DNA of 64,000 nt, from contig NZ_CP011388.1 of NCBI RefSeq assembly GCF_001644605.1, positions 2,756,501 to 2,820,500 of the forward strand. The letters run 5' to 3'. The stretch's first letter is position 1; the number at the start of each line of letters is the position of its first letter. The stretch is from Paenibacillus swuensis (GTDB lineage Bacteria; Bacillota; Bacilli; Paenibacillales; DY6). A program made the translations under genes and the position numbers. The notes below the pieces were generated by a model. That model did not search any database, was not told the DNA's origin, and was given only the letters and a program-made list of their open reading frames with translations. Shown here in pieces: positions 8 through 44,908 of this stretch.

Positions 8-1738
8 GTGGAGGGTTCTCCTATTGAGGAGACGCCTCAACCAGGGGGAACCATCAATCCGGGTGATGTGACCGCTCCGGTCGAACCGGAAATTCACGAG
101 ATGAACCTTGCCTCCTTTGCAGTACAGCCTTGCGCGGAAGGCGCATTTCCTTATTTAAAGCACACGGGAAGGTTCGGGATGACCTCGGAGGATTCTCTGA
201 AGCTGCAGGAAGAAGTTCGCCAGGCCGCTTCAGCTTTGAGATCGTTGCGCAAGGGCTCTCGGTTACTCTGCATGGGTACGGGCGAGTTTATGTACATCCC
301 GATGCGGATTGCAGCGGAATTGGGCGGAGAAGTCTGGTATCAATCCACCACCAGAAGTCCGATTCACCCTTATGCGGCAGATCACTACGCGGTTCAGAGC
401 GCTTACGCTTATCCGTCTCCGGAGCACGACGGGGTTATGAACTATATGTATAACATTGAAGCGGGTCAATACGACGAGCTGATGCTCTTTATGGAACGGG
501 AAATGAGCGCCGAATCGATGGCGGGTTTGAGGAGAGTCTTGGCATCCCTGGGCATTTCGCGAATCTATATCATTAACTGCGGTGTTAAGCGGTTAGCCGC
601 GCCGGAGCCAATCGGGAGTTATCCTTCAGACGATGTAACTTTTCTGCTGAAAGATTTAAGTTCCATCGATTTGGAACGGCCGACTGAGAACCGCGAACGT
701 GCGATTCAGGCAGGTGTTCATTATTCCGAAATGCTGCCGATGGAATTTCAGCCTACCGCGGAGTATCTGCGAATTTTCCACGAGACGCTTCACGCGTCAG
801 GAATGAAGGTCGCGAAGGATGCGGGAACGGTTGCGGAGCTGATTGCCGCGCGTCGGGGAGAGAAGATCGTACTGGTATCCCTGGCCCGCGCGGGTACGCC
901 GATCGGGGTTCTGATCAAGAGATACCTGAAGCAAACCTACGGATGGGACATTCCCCATTACAGCATTTCGATTCTTCGGGGCAAAGGAATGGATGAGAAC
1001 GCACTGCTCTATATTCATCAGAATCATCCTGGAGCTCAAGTGCAATTCGTGGACGGCTGGACCGGGAAAGGCGCCATCACACGGGAATTAAAGAACGCTT
1101 GTGAGCGAATGAACCTTCGCTATGGTGTCGAGCTGAGTCCGGATTTGGCAGTTCTGGCGGATCCGGGGCACTGTTCTGCCACCTTCGGGACCAGGGAAGA
1201 TTATCTCATTCCCAGCGCCTGCCTGAATTCGACCGTGTCGGGCTTGGTCAGCAGAACGGTGTTGCGAGACGATTTGATCGGACCGTCTGATTTTCACGGG
1301 GCCAAATATTACAAGGAATGGCAGGATCACGATGTATCCAACCTCTTTGTGGATACGATTGCCGGTCATTTTCTCGGCGTGACGGAGGCCGCAAAGGCCG
1401 AAGCGGAGAAGCGGTTAAAGGCTGAAGCTGCGATGCCATGGAATGAAATGGTCGATGGTGATTCGGCTGTGACTTGGCAAGGGATGGAGGATATCATCCG
1501 AATTCAGCAGCAGTACGTCATGGATAACATCAACCGGATTAAACCCGGTGTGGGCGAGACAACTCGAGTCCTTTTGCGCCGGGTACCTTGGAAGATTCTT
1601 GTGGATCGACTGGACAACCCGGAGCTGAAATCCATTCTGCAGTTGGCTAAAGAGCGGCATGTGCCGGTCGAGGTTTACCCCGAAATGACCTATGCCTGTT
1701 GCGGACTGATTCAAGGGATGGGAGGCGGGGCGGAATGA
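8..1738 (+). CDS. StiP/PRTase-type protein with C-terminal PELOTA-like domain, Ter stress cassette
   Basis: This 576-residue protein resembles the phosphoribosyltransferase-type proteins (annotated StiP in databases) found in tellurium-resistance stress cassettes. A phosphoribosyltransferase-like core lies around residues 275-375: a strand reading VLVSLARAGTPIG, then the motif VQFVDGWTGKGA near residue 345, which fits a PRPP-binding loop. A conserved DPGHCSATFGTRED segment follows near residue 385. The last ~90 residues look like the PELOTA RNA-binding-type domain that ends these proteins. GTG at 8 is the first start in the window, but the frame is open to the left edge, so the true start could be upstream; ATG at 101 is another option. 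Its stop overlaps the next ATG (ATGA), so the genes are translationally coupled. The family is predicted to make a nucleoside-like metabolite; the chemistry is not established. Confidence 0.75.
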   Translation: MEGSPIEETPQPGGTINPGDVTAPVEPEIHEMNLASFAVQPCAEGAFPYLKHTGRFGMTSEDSLKLQEEVRQAASALRSLRKGSRLLCMGTGEFMYIPMRIAAELGGEVWYQSTTRSPIHPYAADHYAVQSAYAYPSPEHDGVMNYMYNIEAGQYDELMLFMEREMSAESMAGLRRVLASLGISRIYIINCGVKRLAAPEPIGSYPSDDVTFLLKDLSSIDLERPTENRERAIQAGVHYSEMLPMEFQPTAEYLRIFHETLHASGMKVAKDAGTVAELIAARRGEKIVLVSLARAGTPIGVLIKRYLKQTYGWDIPHYSISILRGKGMDENALLYIHQNHPGAQVQFVDGWTGKGAITRELKNACERMNLRYGVELSPDLAVLADPGHCSATFGTREDYLIPSACLNSTVSGLVSRTVLRDDLIGPSDFHGAKYYKEWQDHDVSNLFVDTIAGHFLGVTEAAKAEAEKRLKAEAAMPWNEMVDGDSAVTWQGMEDIIRIQQQYVMDNINRIKPGVGETTRVLLRRVPWKILVDRLDNPELKSILQLAKERHVPVEVYPEMTYACCGLIQGMGGGAE

Positions 1739-5655: not shown

Positions 5656-5720
5656 AAATTCACATATTGTAGTGGGTTAAATGGACTTAAAGGTATTAAC
5701 CCTTTACCATATGTGAATTT
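5656..5720 (+). promoter_or_regulatory. Large stem-loop in the csp 5' leader
   Basis: AAATTCACATAT (5656-5667) pairs perfectly with ATATGTGAATTT (5709-5720). After a symmetric 6 x 6 internal loop, GGGTTAA (5674-5680) pairs with TTAACCC (5696-5702) around a 15-nt loop. The structure sits between the predicted transcription start and the GGAGG site, where cold-shock genes carry temperature-sensitive leader structures. That role is inferred from position. Confidence 0.6.
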
Positions 5721-5763
5721 TTGTTTAAAAAATCATGTAAATTATTTTTGGAGGTAATTACCC

Positions 5764-5964
5764 ATGGAACAAGGAACAGTAAAATGGTTTAACGCAGAAA
5801 AAGGATTTGGCTTTATCGAAGTTGAAGGCGGCAACGATGTATTCGTACATTTCTCCGCAATCGTAGGCGACGGTTTCAAATCTTTGGACGAAGGCCAACG
5901 CGTTGAGTTCAACGTAGTACAAGGCAACCGCGGTCCTCAAGCTGAGAACGTAGTAAAACTTTAA
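5764..5964 (+). CDS. csp: Cold-shock protein, CspA/CspB family
   Basis: A 66-residue single cold-shock domain. The RNP1-type motif KGFGFIE (about residues 13-19) and the RNP2-type motif VFVHFSAI (about 26-33) carry the aromatic residues that bind single-stranded RNA and DNA. The length matches the CspB family exactly. It acts as an RNA chaperone in the cytoplasm. A GGAGG site lies 9 nt before the ATG. The gene has its own promoter, a long structured leader and a terminator, and YdjO lies just downstream. Confidence 0.95.
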
Positions 5965-5974
5965 TTAAACCAAT

Positions 5975-6003
5975 GCCCCGAACATAACGTTTGGGGCTTT
6001 TGT
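5975..6003 (+). terminator. Terminator after csp
   Basis: GCCCC (5975-5979) pairs with GGGGC (5993-5997), extended by a G-U pair next to the stem, and is followed by a T-rich run. Confidence 0.8.
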
Positions 6004-35394: not shown

Positions 35395-35808
35395 CGCTAG
35401 CGGCGCGAAAGGCCGTTGGAGCGAGGGCTTGGCCGGCTAACGGCGCCAAAGGCCGTAAGAGCGCGAGGCTTCGCTCGCTAGCGGCGCAAAAGTCCGTTAG
35501 AGCGCGAGCCAAGTCCGCTAACGGCGCAAAAGGCCGTTAGAGCGCGAGCCCGGTCCGCTAACGGCGCCAAAGGCCGTAAGAGTGCGAACCAGGCCCGCTA
35601 ACGGCGCAAAAGGCCATTGGAGCGCGAGCCCGGTCCGCTAACGGCGCCAAAGGCCGTAAGAGCGCGAGCCAAGCCCGCTAACGGCGCCAAAGGCCGTTAG
35701 AGCGCGAGCCCGGCCCGCTAACGGCGCCAAAGGCCGTTAGAGCGCGAGCTCGGTCCGCTAACGGCGCCAAAGGCCGTTAGAGCGCGAATCTGCACTAGCT
35801 AACGGCCC
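35395..35808 (+). repeat. 40-bp tandem repeat array, about ten copies
   Basis: Units begin with CGCTAACGGC at 35516, 35556, 35596, 35636, 35676, 35716 and 35756, exactly 40 bp apart; slightly diverged units begin at 35395, 35434 and 35476, and a partial one ends near 35808. Each unit contains CTAACGGC and, about 7 nt later, GCCGTTAG or GCCGTAAG, so most can fold into a small hairpin. There are no spacers. The array starts 37 bp after the transglutaminase stop. A terminator role or a structural role is possible. Confidence 0.9.
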
Positions 35809-35814
35809 TCCCGC

Positions 35815-36488
35815 CTACAACACCGCGAAGTAGGCTCTCGATTTCTCCACCAGGGTAGCCGTATCCAGCTGAAAGCCGGTCCCGTAGAGCGATTCGCATG
35901 TAGTGCAGAGCGGTTGCGGCTCAGGGTATGCATCCTCTGTCAGCCAAGCTCCTTCCAAGCTCAGGGAGACCACTTGCATTGCCGTGCATCCCGGGCCAAT
36001 TAGATAGTCTTTATGGAAGCTTAACGCGTATCCTTGTCTCCGCAGACGACTGGCTTGCTCTACCGTATCCAACAAAGAATGCTGAGCATTCTTTGTTGGA
36101 TATGAAGAACGGGGACGCCATGCTCCGCATCGAATGGAACAGCGCCTGTCATGTGACCGAGGGTTGCCTGATTCGCGGAATACAGCCCTTCCATACCTCC
36201 GCCGACCGCAATTGGTATCATCTCTGTCCACTTCATATTCTGACGGCGCGCGACCACATCGAGTAAAGCCATCTTCACCAGCTCCGTGCGGACCGTTCCC
36301 CACATCCCCGCGTGTTCAATTACTCTGTTCAATGCTTCGGTTATTGTTAAATTCCTTAATTTCTGCAAGAAAGCGGCCCATTTCACTATGTCAAAAGAGG
36401 GCGCGTTAACGGCCATAATACATTCGCCCCATCCGGTCTGGCCTCCGCAACTGATCTTTAATACTCCGTATCGGCAATTTTCCAGCGT
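35815..36488 (-). pseudogene. Decayed enolase-superfamily (mandelate racemase/muconate lactonizing-like) gene
   Basis: Minus-strand fragments in two frames. From 36488 down, the frame reads YGVLKISCGGQTGWGEC, then AVNAPSFDIVKWAAFL, and MALLDVVARRQNM. That pattern fits the N-terminal domain of enolase-superfamily enzymes. It ends in a stop near 36060. The frame then shifts, and VEQASRLRRQGYALSF to LDTATLVEKSRAYFAVL resembles later parts of such an enzyme, with the middle missing. The 5' end has a stop codon (near 36489) and no clear start. A 37-bp perfect palindrome sits at the frame change. The family call is from pattern reading, so moderate. Confidence 0.5.
36066..36102. repeat. Perfect 37-bp palindrome inside the pseudogene
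   Basis: Two 18-bp arms (36066-36083 and 36085-36102) around a single central G are exact reverse complements. The repeat lies at the point where the pseudogene changes frame. Confidence 0.9.
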
Positions 36489-36512
36489 TTAGTGCGAGGA
36501 GGATACGGCATC

Positions 36513-36551
36513 AAAAAAGCCGCACAAAGAGAAGGTCTCTTCGCGCGGCTT
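36513..36551 (-). terminator. Terminator of the minus-strand c-di-AMP riboswitch
   Basis: AAGCCGC (36517-36523) pairs with GCGGCTT (36545-36551), with an inner AGAGA/TCTCT stem (36528-36532 with 36536-36540). On the minus strand a T6 run follows. It lies between the riboswitch and the pseudogene, as the expression platform. Confidence 0.85.
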
Positions 36552-36608
36552 CAAATCATGCGGCGATGCGCCGCAAACTTTAGTCCGAATGTAGGCCTCT
36601 CTCGAATA

Positions 36609-36743
36609 CGCTTGCGAGGTTAGCTGCCGGATTCGGGCGTGAGAGTCGCCCTACGCGTCTTGACCTTAAACGGCCGTCCGCGATTCACCCCATCGGCGTG
36701 GGCCGAAGTGGGTTCCCCCGCTTCCCCTTAGGGAATTCAGCGA
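36609..36743 (-). promoter_or_regulatory. c-di-AMP riboswitch (ydaO/yuaA class), minus strand
   Basis: Read on the minus strand this carries the class core almost exactly: GTAGGGCGACTCTCACGCC, then CCGAATCC and CAGCTAACCTCG. The closing helix forms between the 5' TCGCTGA (36738-36744) and the 3' AGCG (about 36609-36612). It lacks some of the variable-arm length of the two plus-strand copies. Its terminator follows at 36513-36551. The only thing downstream is the decayed enolase-type gene. Confidence 0.85.
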
Positions 36744-37169
36744 TGATTAGTTTAAACAAAAACGATCATACACCCGTACTCATTCCCTTGTCTAACGGAA
36801 TTAAACGCATTTCTGATTTGAATCCGGCAAAAATCGCTGATAAGGGCGATTTTTAAGGCCTAAATACAGGTTTATCTCATCGGGAAACGGTTCAGTCTCC
36901 TTCCGTCTCGTTATATTAAAATCCAGGAAGAAGATGGTTATTCATTCCTCCTAAACAGGCTTACACCATTCTTGAAACCCTTGATCGTATTTTAGTAAAA
37001 CGAAGATATAATGAGATATTTGTATTTATGAAGAGTTCACAAGCTTTGTAAGCGCACCAACAATCTCTTTTGACCGAATTAGCCTCTACAAGCTACCCAG
37101 ACTTCCTTTACAAACAAATTAGCGAGGCGTAAGATTTGATTCAGAATTTGAAATGAGTTTCCATTCGTA
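36744..37169. other. Spacer between opposed riboswitches
   Basis: No gene is visible in these 426 bp. It must hold the promoters for the two divergent riboswitch transcripts. TATAAT at 37007-37012 could be a -10 box for the plus-strand unit, but the nearest TTGATC (36981-36986) is 20 nt away, longer than ideal. Confidence 0.5.
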
Positions 37170-37340
37170 ACGCTGAATTTTCTGGAATGGAAAACGGGGG
37201 AACCAATTGATTGCACTGTACCGATGTGAGAGTCGGTGCAGCCGCGATCCGGGGTGAATCCTGAAAGAAGCCGCCATGGATGCTTCTTTCGGGTAGGGCG
37301 ACTCTCACCGCCCGAATCCGTCAGCTAACCTCGTAAGCGT
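37170..37340 (+). promoter_or_regulatory. c-di-AMP riboswitch 1 of the tandem pair before kdp
   Basis: The conserved core is present: GGGTAGGGCGACTCTCACCG, CCGAATCCGTCAGCTAACCT and the end CGTAAGCGT. The terminal helix pairs ACGCT (37170-37174) with AGCGT (37336-37340). The AACGGGGGAACCA element lies at 37193-37205. In this class, c-di-AMP binding favours the downstream terminator and turns genes off. Confidence 0.9.
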
Positions 37341-37434
37341 CGTGAACCGCAGGTCAGCCCAACCCTGTTTTTTGGGAAGGTATGATCTGCTGTTAAATGG
37401 AGTGAAAGGATGATGGAGCTTGTGACCGGACCGG

Positions 37435-37465
37435 CCGCAGGTGAGTTTGAGACTGCGGTTTTTTT
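37435..37465 (+). terminator. Terminator 1 of the kdp leader
   Basis: CCGCAG (37435-37440) pairs with CTGCGG (37453-37458), followed by a T7 run. The same CCGCAGGT string occurs at 37347-37354 directly after riboswitch 1 and could compete for CTGCGG. Confidence 0.8.
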
Positions 37466-37535
37466 GTGCCTTCAATAGGCTGAACAGGACTGATCCTACA
37501 TTGAATTTAAGGTTTAACAGCTAATATTTCATGAT

Positions 37536-37702
37536 CGCTGAGTTCCTGCAACCCGCAGGAAACGGGGGAACCATCGAGTGCGTCTTCGCAAGAAGCGCGC
37601 TCAGGGGTGAATCCGGAAGCAGGCCGCGGAAACACGCAGCTTCACAAGCTTCTGGTAGGGCGACTCTCACGCCCGAATCCGACAGCTAACCTCGTAAGCG
37701 TC
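37536..37702 (+). promoter_or_regulatory. c-di-AMP riboswitch 2 of the tandem pair before kdp
   Basis: A second full copy of the class: AACGGGGGAACCA at 37561-37574, GGTAGGGCGACTCTCACGCC, CCGAATCCGACAGCTAACCT and CGTAAGCG. CGCT (37536-37539) pairs with AGCG (37697-37700). It begins about 70 bp after terminator 1. The copies differ in the variable arms, so this is not a recent exact duplication. Confidence 0.9.
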
Positions 37703-37752
37703 CCGAGAGAGGCAACGACCATCGTGTTCGACACAGTCTGTTTAGCTGTGCC

Positions 37753-37794
37753 AGAAGCCGCGAGAAGAGTTCCTCTTCCCAAGGCTTCTTTTTT
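37753..37794 (+). terminator. Terminator 2 of the kdp leader
   Basis: AGAAGCC (37753-37759) pairs with GGCTTCT (37783-37789), with an inner GAAGAG/CTCTTC stem, followed by a T run. It lies 50 bp after riboswitch 2 and about 125 bp before the first kdp reading frame. Confidence 0.85.
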
Positions 37795-37919
37795 GTTGCC
37801 TTTTTTCTCGGGAAAGTACCGGGGTGTGGAGAATATCGTAGTTGTGAATACTGAGGAAGGGATCATCGTTTCTTAGCTGCCAAATTAATATGAGTAGAAA
37901 ACCATAGGAGGATAATTTC

Positions 37920-38030
37920 ATGTTAGACGTGTATATGATATGCCTTTTGGCAGGAACATTTCTGTTCATTTACGGCTTTATGTCCTTCTGCGACAAAGTT
38001 ATTAACGATACCGGAGGCGACAAGTTATGA
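37920..38030 (+). CDS. 36-residue membrane peptide leading the kdp operon
   Basis: A short reading frame with a good AGGAGG site 8 nt before the ATG. It has one hydrophobic helix (about residues 4-22, MICLLAGTFLFIYGFMS) followed by CDKVINDTGGDKL. It overlaps kdpF by 4 bp (ATGA), so the two are translationally coupled. Small peptides with a membrane helix and a C-D-(K/R) pattern after it occur before kdpF in some other kdp operons, as far as I recall. I know of no proven function. A regulatory or assembly subunit of the Kdp complex is a possible role. Confidence 0.65.
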   Translation: MLDVYMICLLAGTFLFIYGFMSFCDKVINDTGGDKL

Positions 38031-38104
38031 CCATTATTCTCATATTCACCGTGTTGATCTTCGTTTACCTGCTATATGCTCTGGTTAATCCGGAGAAATT
38101 CTAA
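38027..38104 (+). CDS. kdpF: Potassium-transporting ATPase subunit F
   Basis: A 25-residue single-helix peptide ending YLLYALVNPEKF, which matches the KdpF pattern (one membrane helix, then N/RPE-KF). KdpF stabilises the KdpFABC complex in the membrane. It is too short for usual gene finding. It overlaps the preceding peptide gene by 4 bp and precedes kdpA by 33 bp. Confidence 0.9.
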   Translation: MTIILIFTVLIFVYLLYALVNPEKF

Positions 38105-38137: not shown

Positions 38138-39817
38138 ATGGGAATTCTGCAAATCGCAATCGTCATCGGCATCATTATGCTGTTGGTGAAGCCTGTCGGC
38201 ACCTATCTGTATCATGTGTTCTCCAATGAACCGAATCGTACGGATCAAGTGTTCGGGTGGGCGGAGCGAATCATCTATGCATTAATCGGATTGAGAAATA
38301 GAGCGGGTATGACCTGGAAGAAGTACGCGCTAAGCTTCCTGATCACGAATATCGTGCTGACTGCTGTCTCCTATCTGATTCTTCGGTTTCAAAACGGTTT
38401 GCCGTGGAACCCGAACGAGATCGGCAATATGGAACAGACTCTCACGTTGAATACGGTCATTTCGTTTATGACCAATACGAACTTGCAGCATTACAGCGGT
38501 GAATCCGCGTTGACTTACTTCTCGCAGATGGTCGTCATCACGATGATGATGTTCACCTCCGCGGCGACCGGGTTCTCGGTTGCGATCGCGTTCATTCGCG
38601 GTCTTACGAAGAAAGGCACGACCATCGGAAATTTCTTCGAAGATTTTGTGAAGGCGCACACGCGTATTTTCATCCCTTTGGCATTTATCGTCACGTTGGT
38701 GCTTGTCGCGCTGAAAGTACCGCAAACGCTGGATCCTACACTGGCTATTACAACATTGGAAGGCGCCGCGCAAAGTATCGCGATCGGACCTGTGGCCGCG
38801 CTCGAATCCATTAAACATCTGGGTACCAACGGCGGCGGTTTCTTCGGCGTCAACTCGGCGCATCCGTTCGAGAATCCATCACCTTTGACCAATGTAATTG
38901 AAATCTTGTCCATGTGGATGCTACCGGCGGCGCTTCCTTACACCTACGGCTTATTCGCCAAGAACCGCAAACAAGGTTGGGTTGTATTCAGCGCGATGAT
39001 GGCGCTCTTCCTGGTGTTTGTATCCATTGCTTATACAGCGGAACTGCGCGGGAACCCGGCGATCAACGCTATAGGCATCGATGCTTCTCAAGGCAGTATG
39101 GAAGGCAAAGAAGTGCGATTCGGTATTCCGCAGTCGGCTTTGTTTACGACAGTAACCGCGGCGGCGACAACCGGTACCGTCAATAATATGCATGATACGC
39201 TGACCCCGCTGGGCGGACTTGTGCCGATGGCTGAAATGATGTTAAACAGCGTCTTCGGAGGTAAAGGCGTCGGGTTAATCAATATGCTGATGTATGCCAT
39301 CCTGGGTGTGTTTATTGCAGGTTTAATGGTGGGACGGACACCGGAGTTTCTCGGCCGCAAAATAGAGCCAAGGGAAATGAAACTCGTTGCGATCGCCATT
39401 CTCTCGCATGCTTTCATAATCCTGGTGCCGACGGCAGCTGCATTCATGTCTGAGCTTGGGAAAGCGGCGATCACGAACCCCGGCTTCCACGGCATTTCGC
39501 AGGTGTTGTATGAGTACACTTCATCGGCTGCCAATAACGGCTCCGGTTTTGAAGGCCTTGGCGATAACACGCCGTTCTGGAACATTACAACAGGGATTGT
39601 CATGTTGCTGGGCCGTTACATTTCGATGATTGCTATGCTGGCTGTGGCCGGATCCCTTGTGCGCAAGCAGTGGGTGCCGGAAACGGTCGGAACATTTAGA
39701 ACAGACAACGTGCTGTTCTGGGGCATTTTGATAGGATCCGTCGTCATTATCGGCGCCCTGACCTTCTTGCCTGCTGTCGTACTGGGACCGATTGCCGAGC
39801 ACTTGACGCTCCGCTAA
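38138..39817 (+). CDS. kdpA: Potassium-transporting ATPase, potassium-binding subunit
   Basis: A 559-residue, polytopic (about ten helices) channel-like subunit that binds and conducts potassium in the KdpFABC uptake pump. The potassium-filter regions of the four repeats are recognisable, e.g. TNTNLQHYSGES near residue 110, GTNGGGFFGVNSAHPFENP near residue 228, and NGSGFEGLGDNTPFWN near residue 467. The length is that of full KdpA. It precedes kdpB by 18 bp. AAGGAGG is upstream of the ATG. Confidence 0.97.
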   Translation: MGILQIAIVIGIIMLLVKPVGTYLYHVFSNEPNRTDQVFGWAERIIYALIGLRNRAGMTWKKYALSFLITNIVLTAVSYLILRFQNGLPWNPNEIGNMEQTLTLNTVISFMTNTNLQHYSGESALTYFSQMVVITMMMFTSAATGFSVAIAFIRGLTKKGTTIGNFFEDFVKAHTRIFIPLAFIVTLVLVALKVPQTLDPTLAITTLEGAAQSIAIGPVAALESIKHLGTNGGGFFGVNSAHPFENPSPLTNVIEILSMWMLPAALPYTYGLFAKNRKQGWVVFSAMMALFLVFVSIAYTAELRGNPAINAIGIDASQGSMEGKEVRFGIPQSALFTTVTAAATTGTVNNMHDTLTPLGGLVPMAEMMLNSVFGGKGVGLINMLMYAILGVFIAGLMVGRTPEFLGRKIEPREMKLVAIAILSHAFIILVPTAAAFMSELGKAAITNPGFHGISQVLYEYTSSAANNGSGFEGLGDNTPFWNITTGIVMLLGRYISMIAMLAVAGSLVRKQWVPETVGTFRTDNVLFWGILIGSVVIIGALTFLPAVVLGPIAEHLTLR

Positions 39818-39835: not shown

Positions 39836-41881
39836 ATGAATACGAACGAGAATCGAAGCCGCCAAAGTTTACTGTCGTCGGCCATCATAGGAAACGCAGT
39901 GAAAGACAGTTTTATTAAATTAAATCCGGTGACTATGATGAAAAATCCGGTGATGTTTGTCGTAGAAGTCGGAACGCTTGTTGTGTTGTTGATGATTATG
40001 GCGCCGGGATATTTCGGTGTGGATGAAGGGAATATAGGCTTTAACATTACCGTGTTTCTGATCTTGCTCTTCACGCTGCTGTTCGCGAACTTCGCGGAAG
40101 CCTTGGCCGAGGGCCGGGGTAAAGCACAGGCGGATTCCCTGAAGAAAACAAAACAGGAAGTGATGGCCAACAAGCTTGCAGGCGGCGCGGTCCGAAGAGT
40201 GCCGTCCACAGAGCTCCGTAAAGGAGACATCGTCGTCATCTCGCAAGGCGAACTGGTTCCCGGGGACGGGGAGGTTATTGAAGGCCTGGCCTCTATCGAC
40301 GAATCGGCCATTACGGGAGAATCCGCTCCCGTCATTAAAGAGGCGGGCGGCGATTTCAGCTCTGTAACAGGCGGCACACGGGTCGTCTCCGATGAAATCA
40401 AGGTTCGCATTACCAGCGATCCCGGTGAATCCTTCATCGACCGCATGATTTCACTGGTTGAAGGCGCGCAGCGTCAAAAAACGCCGAATGAAATCGCGTT
40501 GAACACCCTGTTAACGTCATTAACCATTATCTTTTTGATCGTTGTTGTTACGTTGGCGCCGATCGCCAAATATCTGAACATCGAATTGGATGTGCCGGTG
40601 CTGATTGCTTTGCTGGTATGTCTAATTCCGACGACCATCGGCGGATTGCTATCCGCGATCGGGATTGCCGGTATGGACCGGGTTACCCAGTTTAATGTGC
40701 TGGCGATGTCCGGTAAAGCGGTTGAAGCGGCCGGAGACATCAATACGATGATTCTGGACAAAACCGGTACGATTACGTACGGAAACCGGATGGCGAGCAG
40801 CTTTATTCCTGTAGGCGGCGCGACTGTTGCGGACTTGGCCGATTGGGCGGCAATCTCCTCCATGAAAGACGAGACGCCGGAAGGCCGTTCGGTGCTGGAG
40901 TTGATGAAGAAACAAGGCCTTACTTATAATGAAGGATTGGGTAACGGCGGCGAGTTTATCGGATTTACCGCGGAAACCCGTATGAGCGGCGTGGATTTAC
41001 CGGACGGACGTAAAGTGCGTAAAGGCGCTGTGGATGCGGTGAAACGTTGGGTGTCCGGTCAAGGCGGAAGCATCCCTGGTGAACTGGATATTCAAGGCAA
41101 TAAAGTGGCAACGGAAGGCGGAACCCCGCTGGCAGTCGCGGTCGATAACCAAATTTTCGGCGTCATTTACCTGAAGGATACGGTGAAACCGGGGATGCGG
41201 GAGCGGTTCGACCAGATGCGCGCGATGGGAATCAAGACCATTATGTGTACAGGCGATAATCCGTTGACCGCGGCTACGATTGCGCGCGAAGCGGGTGTGG
41301 ATGACTTTATCGCGGAAAGCACGCCTGAAGACAAGATCGCTGTCATCCGCAGGGAACAAGCGGAAGGCAAGCTTGTGGCGATGACCGGTGACGGCACGAA
41401 TGACGCGCCCGCCTTGGCCCAAGCGGATGTAGGGCTTGCGATGAACACCGGGACAGTGGCGGCTAAGGAAGCGGCCAACATGGTGGATCTGGACTCGGAT
41501 CCATCGAAGATCATCGAAGTCGTTGCCATCGGCAAACAGCTTCTGATCACACGCGGAGCTTTAACAACATTCAGTATCGCGAATGATATCGCAAAGTATT
41601 TTGCCATTATCCCGGCGATGTTCATGGTTGCGATTCCCGAGATGGATGTGTTGAATGTGATGCAGCTGGGATCGCCGTTGTCAGCGATCTTATCGGCATT
41701 AATCTTTAATGCGGTTATCATTCCGCTGCTGATTCCCCTCGCTATGAAGGGTGTGGCGTACAAGCCGATGAGCGCGGTGCAATTGTTAAGCAGGAACATC
41801 TTCATCTATGGACTGGGCGGTGTGGTTGCTCCGTTTATCGGTATTAAGCTCATTGATTTAGTTGTGCATTTGTGGATTTAA
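39836..41881 (+). CDS. kdpB: Potassium-transporting ATPase, catalytic P-type ATPase subunit
   Basis: A 681-residue P-type ATPase (class IA) that powers KdpA. Phosphorylated Asp lies in [11 protein letters not shown] near residue 308, the actuator motif in [12 protein letters not shown] near residue 157, and the hinge [19 protein letters not shown] near residue 516. There are about seven membrane helices. The serine phosphorylated in E. coli KdpB when potassium is abundant (TGES) has its counterpart here in ITGESAP. The gene is followed by kdpC after 26 bp. Confidence 0.97.
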
Positions 41882-41907
41882 ATGGAATGAGAAGGGATGT
41901 TAACGAT

Positions 41908-42510
41908 ATGGATTCTAACGAACAGCATCAAGAATTTAAAGGCTCCTCGTTTGTGGTTGCGCTCCGCACCAGTCTGGTATTTATCGTATTATGCGGTATC
42001 CTGTATCCGTTGGTTTGTACCGGTATCGCGCAATGGGTCATGCCGGCTCAGGCGAATGGCAGTCTGATTAAAGATGCGTCAGGTAAAGTCGTGGGTTCCG
42101 AGTTAATCGGGCAAAATTTCACTGATCCCAAAACCTTTCAAGGACGTGTTTCTTCTATAGAGAATAACGGCGCGGGTTCCGGATCCAATAACTATGCTCC
42201 ATCCAATCCGGATTTGTTGAAGCGAACGCAGGAGTCGATCAATGCCTGGAAGATTGCGAATCCGGGTGTGCCTGTGAGTCAACTGCCGATCGCGTTGATT
42301 ACGAATTCCGGTTCAGGTCTGGATCCGCACATTACGCCGCAGTCGGCGGAAGTGCAAATTCCGAGGATCAGCAAGCTGACCGGTGTTCCGCAAGAGGAAT
42401 TGCTGGAACTGGTGAAGAAGCATACCGAAAGTCGGGACTTGGGCGTGTTTGGCGAACCGCGGGTTAACGTACTGAAAGTAAACATTGATTTAAAAACGAT
42501 GTTGAAATAA
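41908..42510 (+). CDS. kdpC: Potassium-transporting ATPase subunit C
   Basis: A 200-residue subunit with one N-terminal membrane helix (about residues 18-40, FIVLCGILYPLVCTGIAQWV) and a soluble domain with LIGQNFTDPKTFQGR near residue 70, GSGLDPHITPQSAEVQIPRI near residue 140 and the ending VNVLKVNIDLKTML. KdpC is the helper subunit of the Kdp pump. ATG 41908 is chosen because GAAGGGATG is about 10 nt upstream; the frame opens earlier, at 41872 and 41887, within the end of kdpB. Confidence 0.93.
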   Translation: MDSNEQHQEFKGSSFVVALRTSLVFIVLCGILYPLVCTGIAQWVMPAQANGSLIKDASGKVVGSELIGQNFTDPKTFQGRVSSIENNGAGSGSNNYAPSNPDLLKRTQESINAWKIANPGVPVSQLPIALITNSGSGLDPHITPQSAEVQIPRISKLTGVPQEELLELVKKHTESRDLGVFGEPRVNVLKVNIDLKTMLK

Positions 42511-42544: not shown

Positions 42545-44908
42545 ATGGGTACGGAAGGGTTCAGGCGCCGAACGCCGGAGGAATTGCTGTTGTCGATCTC
42601 CAAGCTCCACCGGGGACGATTGAAAATTTATATCGGCGCCGTGAGCGGCTCCGGCAAGACGTATCATATGCTGCGGGAAGGCTGTGCCTTGCGCGAACGG
42701 GGCATTGATGTGGTGATCTGTGCCGTGTCGACCAGGCAGCGCGAACAAACCAAGCTGCAGCTGGGCTCTCTGGAACGGGTACCCAGCATTCATTGGTTTA
42801 ATGAACAAGGTGAAGAGAAGAAGGATCTGAATGTGGATGCGTTAATTCAGCGTAATCCCGAAGTGGTTCTTGTGGACGGTCTCGCTCATCGGAATCGCGC
42901 GGAGGCTGCTTATCCTACACGGCTGGATGATATTAAGGTACTGCTGGAGCACGGAATCAGTGTGTTCACGACCGTGAATGTGTACGAGCTGGAAGGCGCG
43001 ACGGAGCTCGCGATGAAGCTTACGGGCATTCAAGCGGAAGCAACCGTCCCGTCGGACACGATGGATCTGGCGGATGAAGTCCGCCTGATTGACGTCTCCC
43101 CGGAGACGATCCTGCAGCGCTTGTCGGACGGCAGCCTCGGCAGCCGCGCCGACAAGGAACAGCCCATGTTCCGCCGAGGCAACTTGGGCAAGCTGCGCGA
43201 GCTCTCGCTGCGGCTCGTTGCCGAAGGCGTGAACGAGTCGCTGGAGAAGTACCGGGAAGAGCAGGGACTGCTCGGACCCTCCGGTGCCGCGGAGCGCATT
43301 CTTGTATCGACCCAGTACCACTGGAACGGGTCGATTTATATCCGGCGCGGGCAACAAATTGCCAAGCGGCTGAACGGCGACCTGCGCGTGGTCACCTTCG
43401 TGAACCCGAAGCGGGAGCTGTCTAAAGAAGCGGCCGCGTTCAAGCGGTCGATGATGAAGTTGTCCGAGAAAGTCGGCGCGCCGTTCGAGGAGTTGCCCCT
43501 GCACGCGGTGCGCGGGTTGCCGCGCAAGCTGGTTTCTTATGCGGTCGAGCACAATGTGAGCAGGTTATTGCTGGGTCATTCGAAGCTGACCCCTTGGCAG
43601 GAGTTTTGGAGAGGTTCTGTCGTGAGCCGTATTCTGCAGTATACGCAGAACGTCGACATCTTCATCATTGCGGATCGCGCGGAACAGGACGGTGAACGAA
43701 TCCTGCCGACCAAGAGTGATCCGGGCGGTATTGCGGATATGGAGCCTTATCGCCGGCTGAATTCAGAAGAGGTCAGGGAGAAGATCGGCCGGATGCGGCG
43801 CGGTAAGTTCAAGGTTTATATCGGTGCGGCCCCGGGTGTCGGCAAAACCTACACGATGCTGCGGGAAGGCAACGATCTGCTGGCGAAGGGCATTGATGCA
43901 GTCATCGGATTGCTGGAAACGCACAATCGGCAGGAAACCGCGGACCAAGAGGGCGCACTCCCTGTGATACCCCGTTCCCGAAACGAGTACAAAGGCACGG
44001 TGCTGGAGGAAATGGACACCGATGCCATCCTGAAGCGAAACCCGGAGGTCGTGCTGGTCGATGAACTTGCCCATAACAATGTGCCGGGCAGCAGGTATCG
44101 CAAGCGGTATGAAGATATTATGCGCATCCTGGAAGCGGGCATATCGGTCATTTCCACCGTGAACGTGCAGCATCTGGAGAGCTTAAACGACGCGGTGGAG
44201 CAAATCACCGGAGTTCGCGTTCGTGAAACGGTACCGGACAGCATCCTCCAGTCAGCGGATGAGATTCAACTCATTGACGTGGCGCCGGACTCCTTGCAGC
44301 AACGAATGCGGGAAGGCAAGATTTATGCCATGAACAAGGTCGAGCAGGCATTGGGCAACTTTTTCAAGAGAGGGAATCTGATTGCTCTGCGGGAACTGGC
44401 CTTAAGGGAGATCGCGGATGATGTGGATGAACGTTTAGAGTCTTATGAGCGGGAGAACTCCCTGCGGGGGCCATGGCGGCGGCGCGAAGTGATTGTCGTC
44501 AGTGTGACCACCAGCTTGAATGCCGAACGTCTCATCCGGCGCGGGTTTCGGATTGCCCATCGGTTGAAGGCGGACTGGTATGTCACCTATATTCATGACC
44601 TGCCGGAATTGAGCGAGGAGTTAAGCTTGCGGATTCGCAAGATGGAGGATATGACGGCGAAACTAGGCGGTAAATTCAAGCTTTGTCATACGCCCCACCG
44701 CCGTAAGCGCGCCATGAGACTCATCGCTTTGGCTGACGAAAATGCAGCGACCCAGATCATTGTCGGCCAATCGAAGCGGACGTTGTGGGAACGATGGACC
44801 CGCGGTTCGGTCGTCCAGGGCCTATTGCGGCATGCGAGGCATATGGACTTGTTGGTGGTAGCGGATTATGAACCTATACTTCAAGTGGAAAAAGGTGCGA
44901 GACCCTAA
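42545..44908 (+). CDS. Tandem KdpD sensor-domain protein without a kinase
   Basis: A 787-residue soluble protein made of two KdpD-N plus USP units in tandem. Unit 1 (about 1-385) has a Walker A IYIGAVSGSGKTY and a weakened Walker B (VVLVDGLAH in place of DELAH). Unit 2 (about 400-785) has both motifs intact: GAAPGVGKTYTMLREGN and VVLVDELAHNNVPGS. Each is followed by a USP-like domain ending in an RLLLGHSK- or TQIIVGQSK-type strand. There are no membrane helices, no HisKA and no ATPase kinase domain, and no kdpE follows. In Staphylococcus KdpD the USP domain binds c-di-AMP, so this may be a second c-di-AMP sensor. It lies 34 bp after kdpC with GGGGGAGGGG. Confidence 0.85.
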   Translation: MGTEGFRRRTPEELLLSISKLHRGRLKIYIGAVSGSGKTYHMLREGCALRERGIDVVICAVSTRQREQTKLQLGSLERVPSIHWFNEQGEEKKDLNVDALIQRNPEVVLVDGLAHRNRAEAAYPTRLDDIKVLLEHGISVFTTVNVYELEGATELAMKLTGIQAEATVPSDTMDLADEVRLIDVSPETILQRLSDGSLGSRADKEQPMFRRGNLGKLRELSLRLVAEGVNESLEKYREEQGLLGPSGAAERILVSTQYHWNGSIYIRRGQQIAKRLNGDLRVVTFVNPKRELSKEAAAFKRSMMKLSEKVGAPFEELPLHAVRGLPRKLVSYAVEHNVSRLLLGHSKLTPWQEFWRGSVVSRILQYTQNVDIFIIADRAEQDGERILPTKSDPGGIADMEPYRRLNSEEVREKIGRMRRGKFKVYIGAAPGVGKTYTMLREGNDLLAKGIDAVIGLLETHNRQETADQEGALPVIPRSRNEYKGTVLEEMDTDAILKRNPEVVLVDELAHNNVPGSRYRKRYEDIMRILEAGISVISTVNVQHLESLNDAVEQITGVRVRETVPDSILQSADEIQLIDVAPDSLQQRMREGKIYAMNKVEQALGNFFKRGNLIALRELALREIADDVDERLESYERENSLRGPWRRREVIVVSVTTSLNAERLIRRGFRIAHRLKADWYVTYIHDLPELSEELSLRIRKMEDMTAKLGGKFKLCHTPHRRKRAMRLIALADENAATQIIVGQSKRTLWERWTRGSVVQGLLRHARHMDLLVVADYEPILQVEKGARP

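Follow-up and report, generated by a model that had tools for sequence, protein, structure and literature searches.

Our analysis of a 64,000-nucleotide stretch of DNA from Paenibacillus swuensis (hereafter the window) indicates that the kdpFABC operon is quite probably preceded by two c-di-AMP OFF riboswitches in series, the first of which would be folded with the help of a kissing loop between a peripheral arm and its own P6 loop. In many Gram-positive bacteria potassium is signalled mainly by c-di-AMP. An aptamer of this class already binds two ligand molecules, and the doublet bears on the question of why it should be present twice. Doublets of c-di-AMP aptamers have been catalogued and control of kdp by a single c-di-AMP riboswitch has been proven, so that the architecture is not new in kind.

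Results

Two aptamers before the kdp operon

Both units are strong matches to the Rfam model of the ydaO/yuaA (c-di-AMP) riboswitch, RF00379, whose gathering cut-off is 38 bits. When the whole window was scored with cmscan, unit 1 matched at 37161-37354 (+) with 86.6 bits (E 8.4e-19) and unit 2 at 37526-37716 (+) with 86.5 bits (E 8.8e-19), each over model positions 1-134; the core blocks CGGGGGAACC, GGGGTGAATC, GGTAGGG and GCCCGAATCCGNCAGCTAACCTCGTAAGCG are intact in both and agree with the family consensus. The original prediction of two full ydaO-class aptamers is borne out, the bodies from P1 to P1' lying where it had placed them, and the Infernal search that it proposed picks up both copies rather than one alone. 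What it missed was a third, divergent copy (36594-36752) and a 50-base hairpin behind unit 1 (37345-37394). The genome holds 8 RF00379 matches, among which units 1 and 2 form the only tandem pair. The aptamers of this region are:

about 36512-36551, minus strand: terminator of the divergent aptamer (fold)
36594-36752, minus strand: third c-di-AMP aptamer, divergent (RF00379, 95.3 bits)
37171-37339, plus strand: unit 1 c-di-AMP aptamer, P1 to P1' (RF00379, 86.6 bits)
37536-37700, plus strand: unit 2 c-di-AMP aptamer, P1 to P1', without the kissing arm (RF00379, 86.5 bits)

Downstream of unit 2 come the kdp genes, as had been proposed, with a KdpD-like gene at their end:

37920-38030, plus strand: small 36-aa ORF before kdpF (no family match)
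38027-38104, plus strand: kdpF (TIGR02115, above its cut-off)
38138-39817, plus strand: kdpA (PF03814, 784 bits)
39836-41881, plus strand: kdpB, P-type ATPase (PF00122, PF00702; operon position)
41872-42510, plus strand: kdpC (PF02669)
42545-44908, plus strand: fused double KdpD-like non-kinase sensor with a USP domain at its end (NF038185 in two stretches, PF02702 twice, PF00582)

The product of the last gene is 787 aa long and contains two sensor domains of KdpD and a USP domain, but no kinase (NCBIfam 'KdpD-like non-kinase potassium sensor'). Since this fusion accounts for all KdpD domains of the genome, kdp would not be under the classic KdpD kinase here, and a riboswitch before kdpFABC in a genome without the KdpD kinase is the situation of the B. 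thuringiensis type. Some relatives carry a gene of ~130 aa between unit 2 and kdpF that is absent from the window (L011 3291-3710; L015 3383-3781; L101 about 900-1020 (-)); the product of the L015 copy is a TrkA_N-domain protein (Pfam, 27.4 bits).

One promoter for both units

A conserved box lies ahead of unit 1:

37107-37135, plus strand: promoter feeding both units, -35 TTTACA at 37107-37112, 17 nt, -10 TAAGAT at 37130-37135

Nearly all tandem loci have the same TTTACA-N17-TAWKAT box, at a position of about -44 relative to the first aptamer's P1, and the sequence ahead of unit 1 has a promoter score of 10.3 vs 8.9 for shuffles. The 75 bases preceding unit 2 reach at best a promoter-like score of 8.3 vs 8.6 in shuffles, and no conserved box stands there in the tandem loci, so that we reject a separate promoter for unit 2. 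Because the conserved promoter is present only before unit 1, we infer that both units lie on one transcript and that polymerase must usually pass both, in keeping with the series arrangement originally put forward. There is no ORF between the units, just a 22-codon AUG frame that overlaps the first terminator, and two complete units of the same class, each an aptamer with its platform, stand in series before one gene.

Tails, antiterminator and terminators

Each unit has its own hairpin-plus-T terminator, again as expected from the original prediction, and the elements between aptamer and terminator differ between the two:

37345-37394, plus strand: hairpin inserted between unit 1 P1' and the regulatory tail (AACCGCAGGTCA / TGATCTGCTGTT), 50 bases, 11/12 pairs by inspection (sequence)
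37399-37409, plus strand: degenerate unit 1 regulatory tail GGAGTGAAAGG, in orthologues GGAGAGAGG (alignment of 36 platforms)
37419-37441, plus strand: candidate unit 1 antiterminator hairpin (CTTGTGACCGG / CCGGCCGCAGG; 9/9 tested pairs form in the window)
37434-37466, plus strand: unit 1 intrinsic terminator (CCGCAG / CTGCGG and T-run; fold -12.7 kcal/mol, covariation)
37705-37716, plus strand: unit 2 canonical tail GAGAGAGGCAAC, whose GAGAG pairs with the P6 loop CUCUC (near-invariant, 32 platforms)
37753-37795, plus strand: unit 2 intrinsic terminator (AGAAGCC...GGCTTCT and T-run; fold -17.9 kcal/mol, conserved in 32 platforms)

In unit 1 the terminator is paired in 97.5% of cells, with both-side changes in 4/9 pairs (35 distinct orthologues), and the antiterminator, which involves (C)UUGUGAYC, in 92.1% of cells, with both-side changes in 3/9 pairs. 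The strand CC(A/G)CAG is common to the terminator and the upstream antiterminator, so that the two would be mutually exclusive, and the window has compensated versions of both. Its tail is displaced and partly degenerate, the computed duplex of P6 loop and tail being weakened to -5.4 from -8.0 kcal/mol, while the complementarity between arm-2 loop and P6 loop is intact; inserts at the position of the 50-base hairpin occur in many unit-1 orthologues that are otherwise intact. Because the tail is degenerate and the terminator does not have the CCUCU of most orthologues, unit 1 may be weakly coupled to ligand in the window. A strict terminator scan of the window lists neither terminator, the first having a 12-base loop and the second internal loops, and the case for the first rests on its conservation in 36 orthologues.

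Unit 2 follows the canonical scheme, the CUCUC of its P6 loop being complementary to GAGAG at 37705-37709. Its platform, consisting of GAGAGAGGCAACGAYNRUCGUG, a hairpin, a strong terminator and GUUGCC, is kept even in Fictibacillus (32 platforms). We also observed that GGCAAC at 37711-37716, within the tail, is complementary to GUUGCC at 37796-37801, just past the T-run of the terminator, and that each of them is conserved; when folded as a whole, the platform is closed by a long helix, which could lock the read-through RNA.

Conservation of the doublet

We compared 80 kdpA loci, one genome per species, nearly all from Paenibacillus, Cohnella and other Paenibacillaceae and two from Fictibacillus; searching the genome set by genus and by family gave the window's own genome only, and the relatives otherwise come from order and class genome samples. 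A motif scan found at least two plus-strand aptamers before kdpA in 45/80 loci, one in 20/80 and none in 15/80, and re-scoring of 45 loci with cmscan gave the same aptamer count in every one. Across two further genome samples every tandem pair that was seen lies immediately before kdpA, and this holds for G074 and G317 as well, which belong to other orders. The distance from one aptamer core to the next is variable, in most cases 82 to 294 bases; by inspection some relatives (L022, L029, L037, L086, L087) are without a clear terminator between the units, and the divergent aptamer is present in 29 loci including the window. At one locus (L077 2492-3712) kdpA is preceded by a triplet of plus-strand c-di-AMP aptamers, of which the first and second are of the kissing-arm type. 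A search of distant plasmids gave short core matches only.

Among the loci with a single unit, 8/20 have the unit-1 type and 12/20 a unit without the arm, as expected if one or the other had been lost after an old duplication. Since the doublet occurs in 45/80 loci and the singles keep either unit 1 or unit 2, comparison of these loci supports the view that the duplication is old and that both units have been maintained, which was the original proposal. A tree built with arm 2 removed, although weakly resolved, places unit 1 of the window nearest to other unit 1s and unit 2 nearest to other unit 2s; a recent duplication or gene conversion is disfavoured by this grouping by kind, to the extent that so weak a tree allows.

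A specialised arm in unit 1

The two elements of the proposed kissing contact are:

37205-37250, plus strand: unit 1 arm 2, a hairpin with loop U-GUGAGAG (GTGAGAG at 37226-37232), proposed kissing partner (loop invariant, stem covaries, window stem folds)
37302-37308, plus strand: unit 1 P6 loop CTCTCAC, exact complement of the arm-2 loop (complementary 7/7; CTCTCAC in 41/41 sequences)

It had been remarked that the variable arms of the two units differ, which is true; what was overlooked is that the arm of unit 1 is a conserved, specialised element. In 41 sequences its loop is invariant, one base aside, within an otherwise variable arm, and its stem shows changes on both sides in 6/6 pairs. 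The loop (GUGAGA or longer) is present in 43/45 upstream units, 8/20 singles and 0/32 divergent copies, and the only downstream unit to have it is the second (middle) copy of the L077 triplet. The P6 loop also differs, having 10 bases in unit 1 (GACUCUCACC) and mostly 9 in unit 2, a difference that recurs across lineages. By these sequence features unit 1 is a distinct structural subtype.

A helix between the arm-2 loop and the P6 loop is possible in 99.7% of cells (41 sequences), and since it is invariant on both sides, covariation speaks neither for nor against it. The computed duplex is -10.5 kcal/mol for the arm-P6 kissing contact vs -8.0 kcal/mol for the P6-tail pairing. In a survey of 92 aptamers from 76 loci, which extended to many Bacilli from other orders, the 3' tail matches P6 loops of widely varying sequence, as in the known pseudoknot, and arm 2 is usually short; outside the unit-1 type, the arms of these 92 aptamers have at most 5 bases complementary to the P6 loop. 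A candidate arm-P6 kissing loop most likely folds unit 1. A pattern search found the arm in 12/399 genomes of the class, mostly of this order, with G317 and G067 outside it; away from kdp, it stands in G067 before a transporter that by inspection resembles KimA, and in G010 before a hydrolase-like gene.

Discussion

How would a leader of this kind control kdp? We propose that the promoter at 37107-37135 drives a leader of ~0.9 kb, with two complete c-di-AMP OFF riboswitches, and then kdpFABC. When K+ is ample and c-di-AMP is high, each aptamer would bind c-di-AMP and let its own terminator form, so that polymerase has two decision points to escape; when K+ and c-di-AMP fall, the antiterminators would win at both units and kdp would be made. 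Two independent units would multiply, giving a deeper and steeper shut-off of K+ uptake. For identical simple units our own arithmetic narrows the 90-10% range from 81-fold to 40-fold and squares the leak. A sharper switch would presumably be useful, because limiting K+ in B. thuringiensis altered c-di-AMP by just 2.4-fold (Wang et al. 2019, PMC6488665). In unit 2 the P6 loop would pair in the canonical manner with the 3' GAGAG tail. In unit 1 the peripheral hairpin loop UGUGAGAG would kiss the P6 loop in cis, a contact that could be made before the tail is transcribed. P6 is probably caught by the arm at an early stage of transcription, which may raise affinity, speed up folding or free the tail. 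The aptamer would then probably be pre-organised and could do without the tail pseudoknot, in line with the hairpin insertions and the tail decay observed among copies of unit 1.

The closest known system is the single c-di-AMP riboswitch that has been proven to turn off kdpFABC in B. thuringiensis (PMC6488665). There, as here, an RF00379 aptamer with an intrinsic terminator stands before kdpF, without KdpDE control. The B. thuringiensis riboswitch is OFF with c-di-AMP, and from it we infer the same direction for the present units; it consists of one unit, however, whereas here there are two, together with a fused double non-kinase KdpD-like protein at the end of the operon. Doublets themselves are well represented: Sherlock et al. 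(2022, PMC9481103) catalogued 77 c-di-AMP doublets, most with a terminator in between, and called them pseudo-cooperative, a term that denotes a sharpening of the kind calculated above. The present pair resembles these in having two aptamers of the same class in series, usually separated by a terminator, with a steeper response predicted. Thus, while the original prediction was right to liken the position upstream of kdp to that in B. thuringiensis, it overstated the newness of the arrangement. The main text presents the catalogued doublets without gene context (neither kdp nor potassium appears in it) and, in the passages on which we draw, without a structural difference between first and second unit, whereas here the doublet is a conserved feature of kdp with a specialised first unit. 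Both units share the core and the P1/P6 arrangement of the canonical ydaO aptamer; the crystallised RNA has a pseudoknot pairing between the P6 loop and the 3' tail (PMC5393176), which unit 2 keeps, but it has almost no arm 2, whereas in unit 1 this arm has 46 bases and a loop complementary to that of P6. Neither a kdp-specific, family-wide doublet nor the arm-P6 variant was found in the literature searched; the original ydaO structure and consensus papers lie outside it, and the arm's novelty is provisional.

We have assumed so far that both units respond to ligand. It is possible, if unlikely, that in this genome unit 2 alone is the working switch, unit 1 either attenuating constitutively or surviving as a decaying remnant in which the terminator has escaped control by the aptamer. 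Such a reading would account for the degenerate tail in the window, for the 50-base hairpin that separates it from the aptamer and for the drop in the P6-tail duplex from -8.0 to -5.4 kcal/mol, and it agrees with the retention of the unit-2 type in 12/20 single loci. However, the aptamer core of unit 1 is intact at 86.6 bits, its antiterminator and terminator pairings have been kept through compensatory changes in the window itself, and inserted hairpins are common in unit-1 orthologues that are otherwise intact.

The arm could also reach across the doublet, its loop pairing with the unit 2 P6 loop, thereby docking the two aptamers and making their ligand binding cooperative. An interaction between tandem c-di-AMP aptamers was raised as a possibility by Sherlock et al. 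(PMC9481103), and the unit 2 P6 loop does contain CUCUCAC in 25/45 doublets, including that of the window. Yet 8 kdp loci with a single unit retain the arm, as do copies away from kdp that have no partner, and while the P6 loop of unit 1 reads CUCUCAC in 41/41 sequences, that of unit 2 has diverged in 20/45 with the arm unchanged in nearly all, which makes docking quite improbable. Equally hard to credit are two promoters with independent units, or a conserved GGAGAGAGGAUGAUG after unit 1 that serves as the ribosome site of a leader peptide controlling the first terminator. The window does have a weak promoter-like match before unit 2, but no conserved promoter stands there; and although the tail plus AUGAUG reads M-M-K-L-V-I-D-stop in several relatives, the frame after the AUG shifts in L010, L011, L052 and L071 with the RNA pairing largely kept, and in the window the compensatory substitutions change both the peptide and its stop. 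We therefore reject leader-peptide control of the first terminator as the main reading.

Returning to two ligand-responsive units in series, we can ask how far unit 1 departs from the known fold. We give about even chances to the more specific proposal that it represents an undescribed subclass of c-di-AMP riboswitch, in which the arm takes hold of the P6 loop through a 7-bp kissing helix while the 3' tail is still to be transcribed, a helix that would supplant the tail pseudoknot or compete with it, and that the upstream and downstream units of kdp doublets differ in thresholds or kinetics and so form a two-stage potassium switch kept across Paenibacillales. The arm would then add a possible new tertiary contact to an aptamer that has been studied closely, and the kdp doublet, together with the single-unit loci of either type, offers natural double and single leaders on which a sharper response could be tested.

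Some further features of the window were observed in passing. Behind the divergent aptamer lies a gene at 35815-36594 (-) that looks like the C-terminal portion of a ~150-aa protein family, conserved and of unknown function, members of which sit behind the divergent aptamer in many relatives. The copy in the window appears to be broken, being without its start region and having a frame change near a 17-base palindrome at ~36062-36100. Downstream of this broken gene, at 35400-35810, there is an array of ~60-base repeats (CTAACGGCCTTTGGCGCCGTTAGCGG). Elsewhere, at 5689-6003, the window has an Rfam match to the cspA thermoregulator whose score equals the cut-off of 78 bits; it apparently overlies a cold-shock gene.
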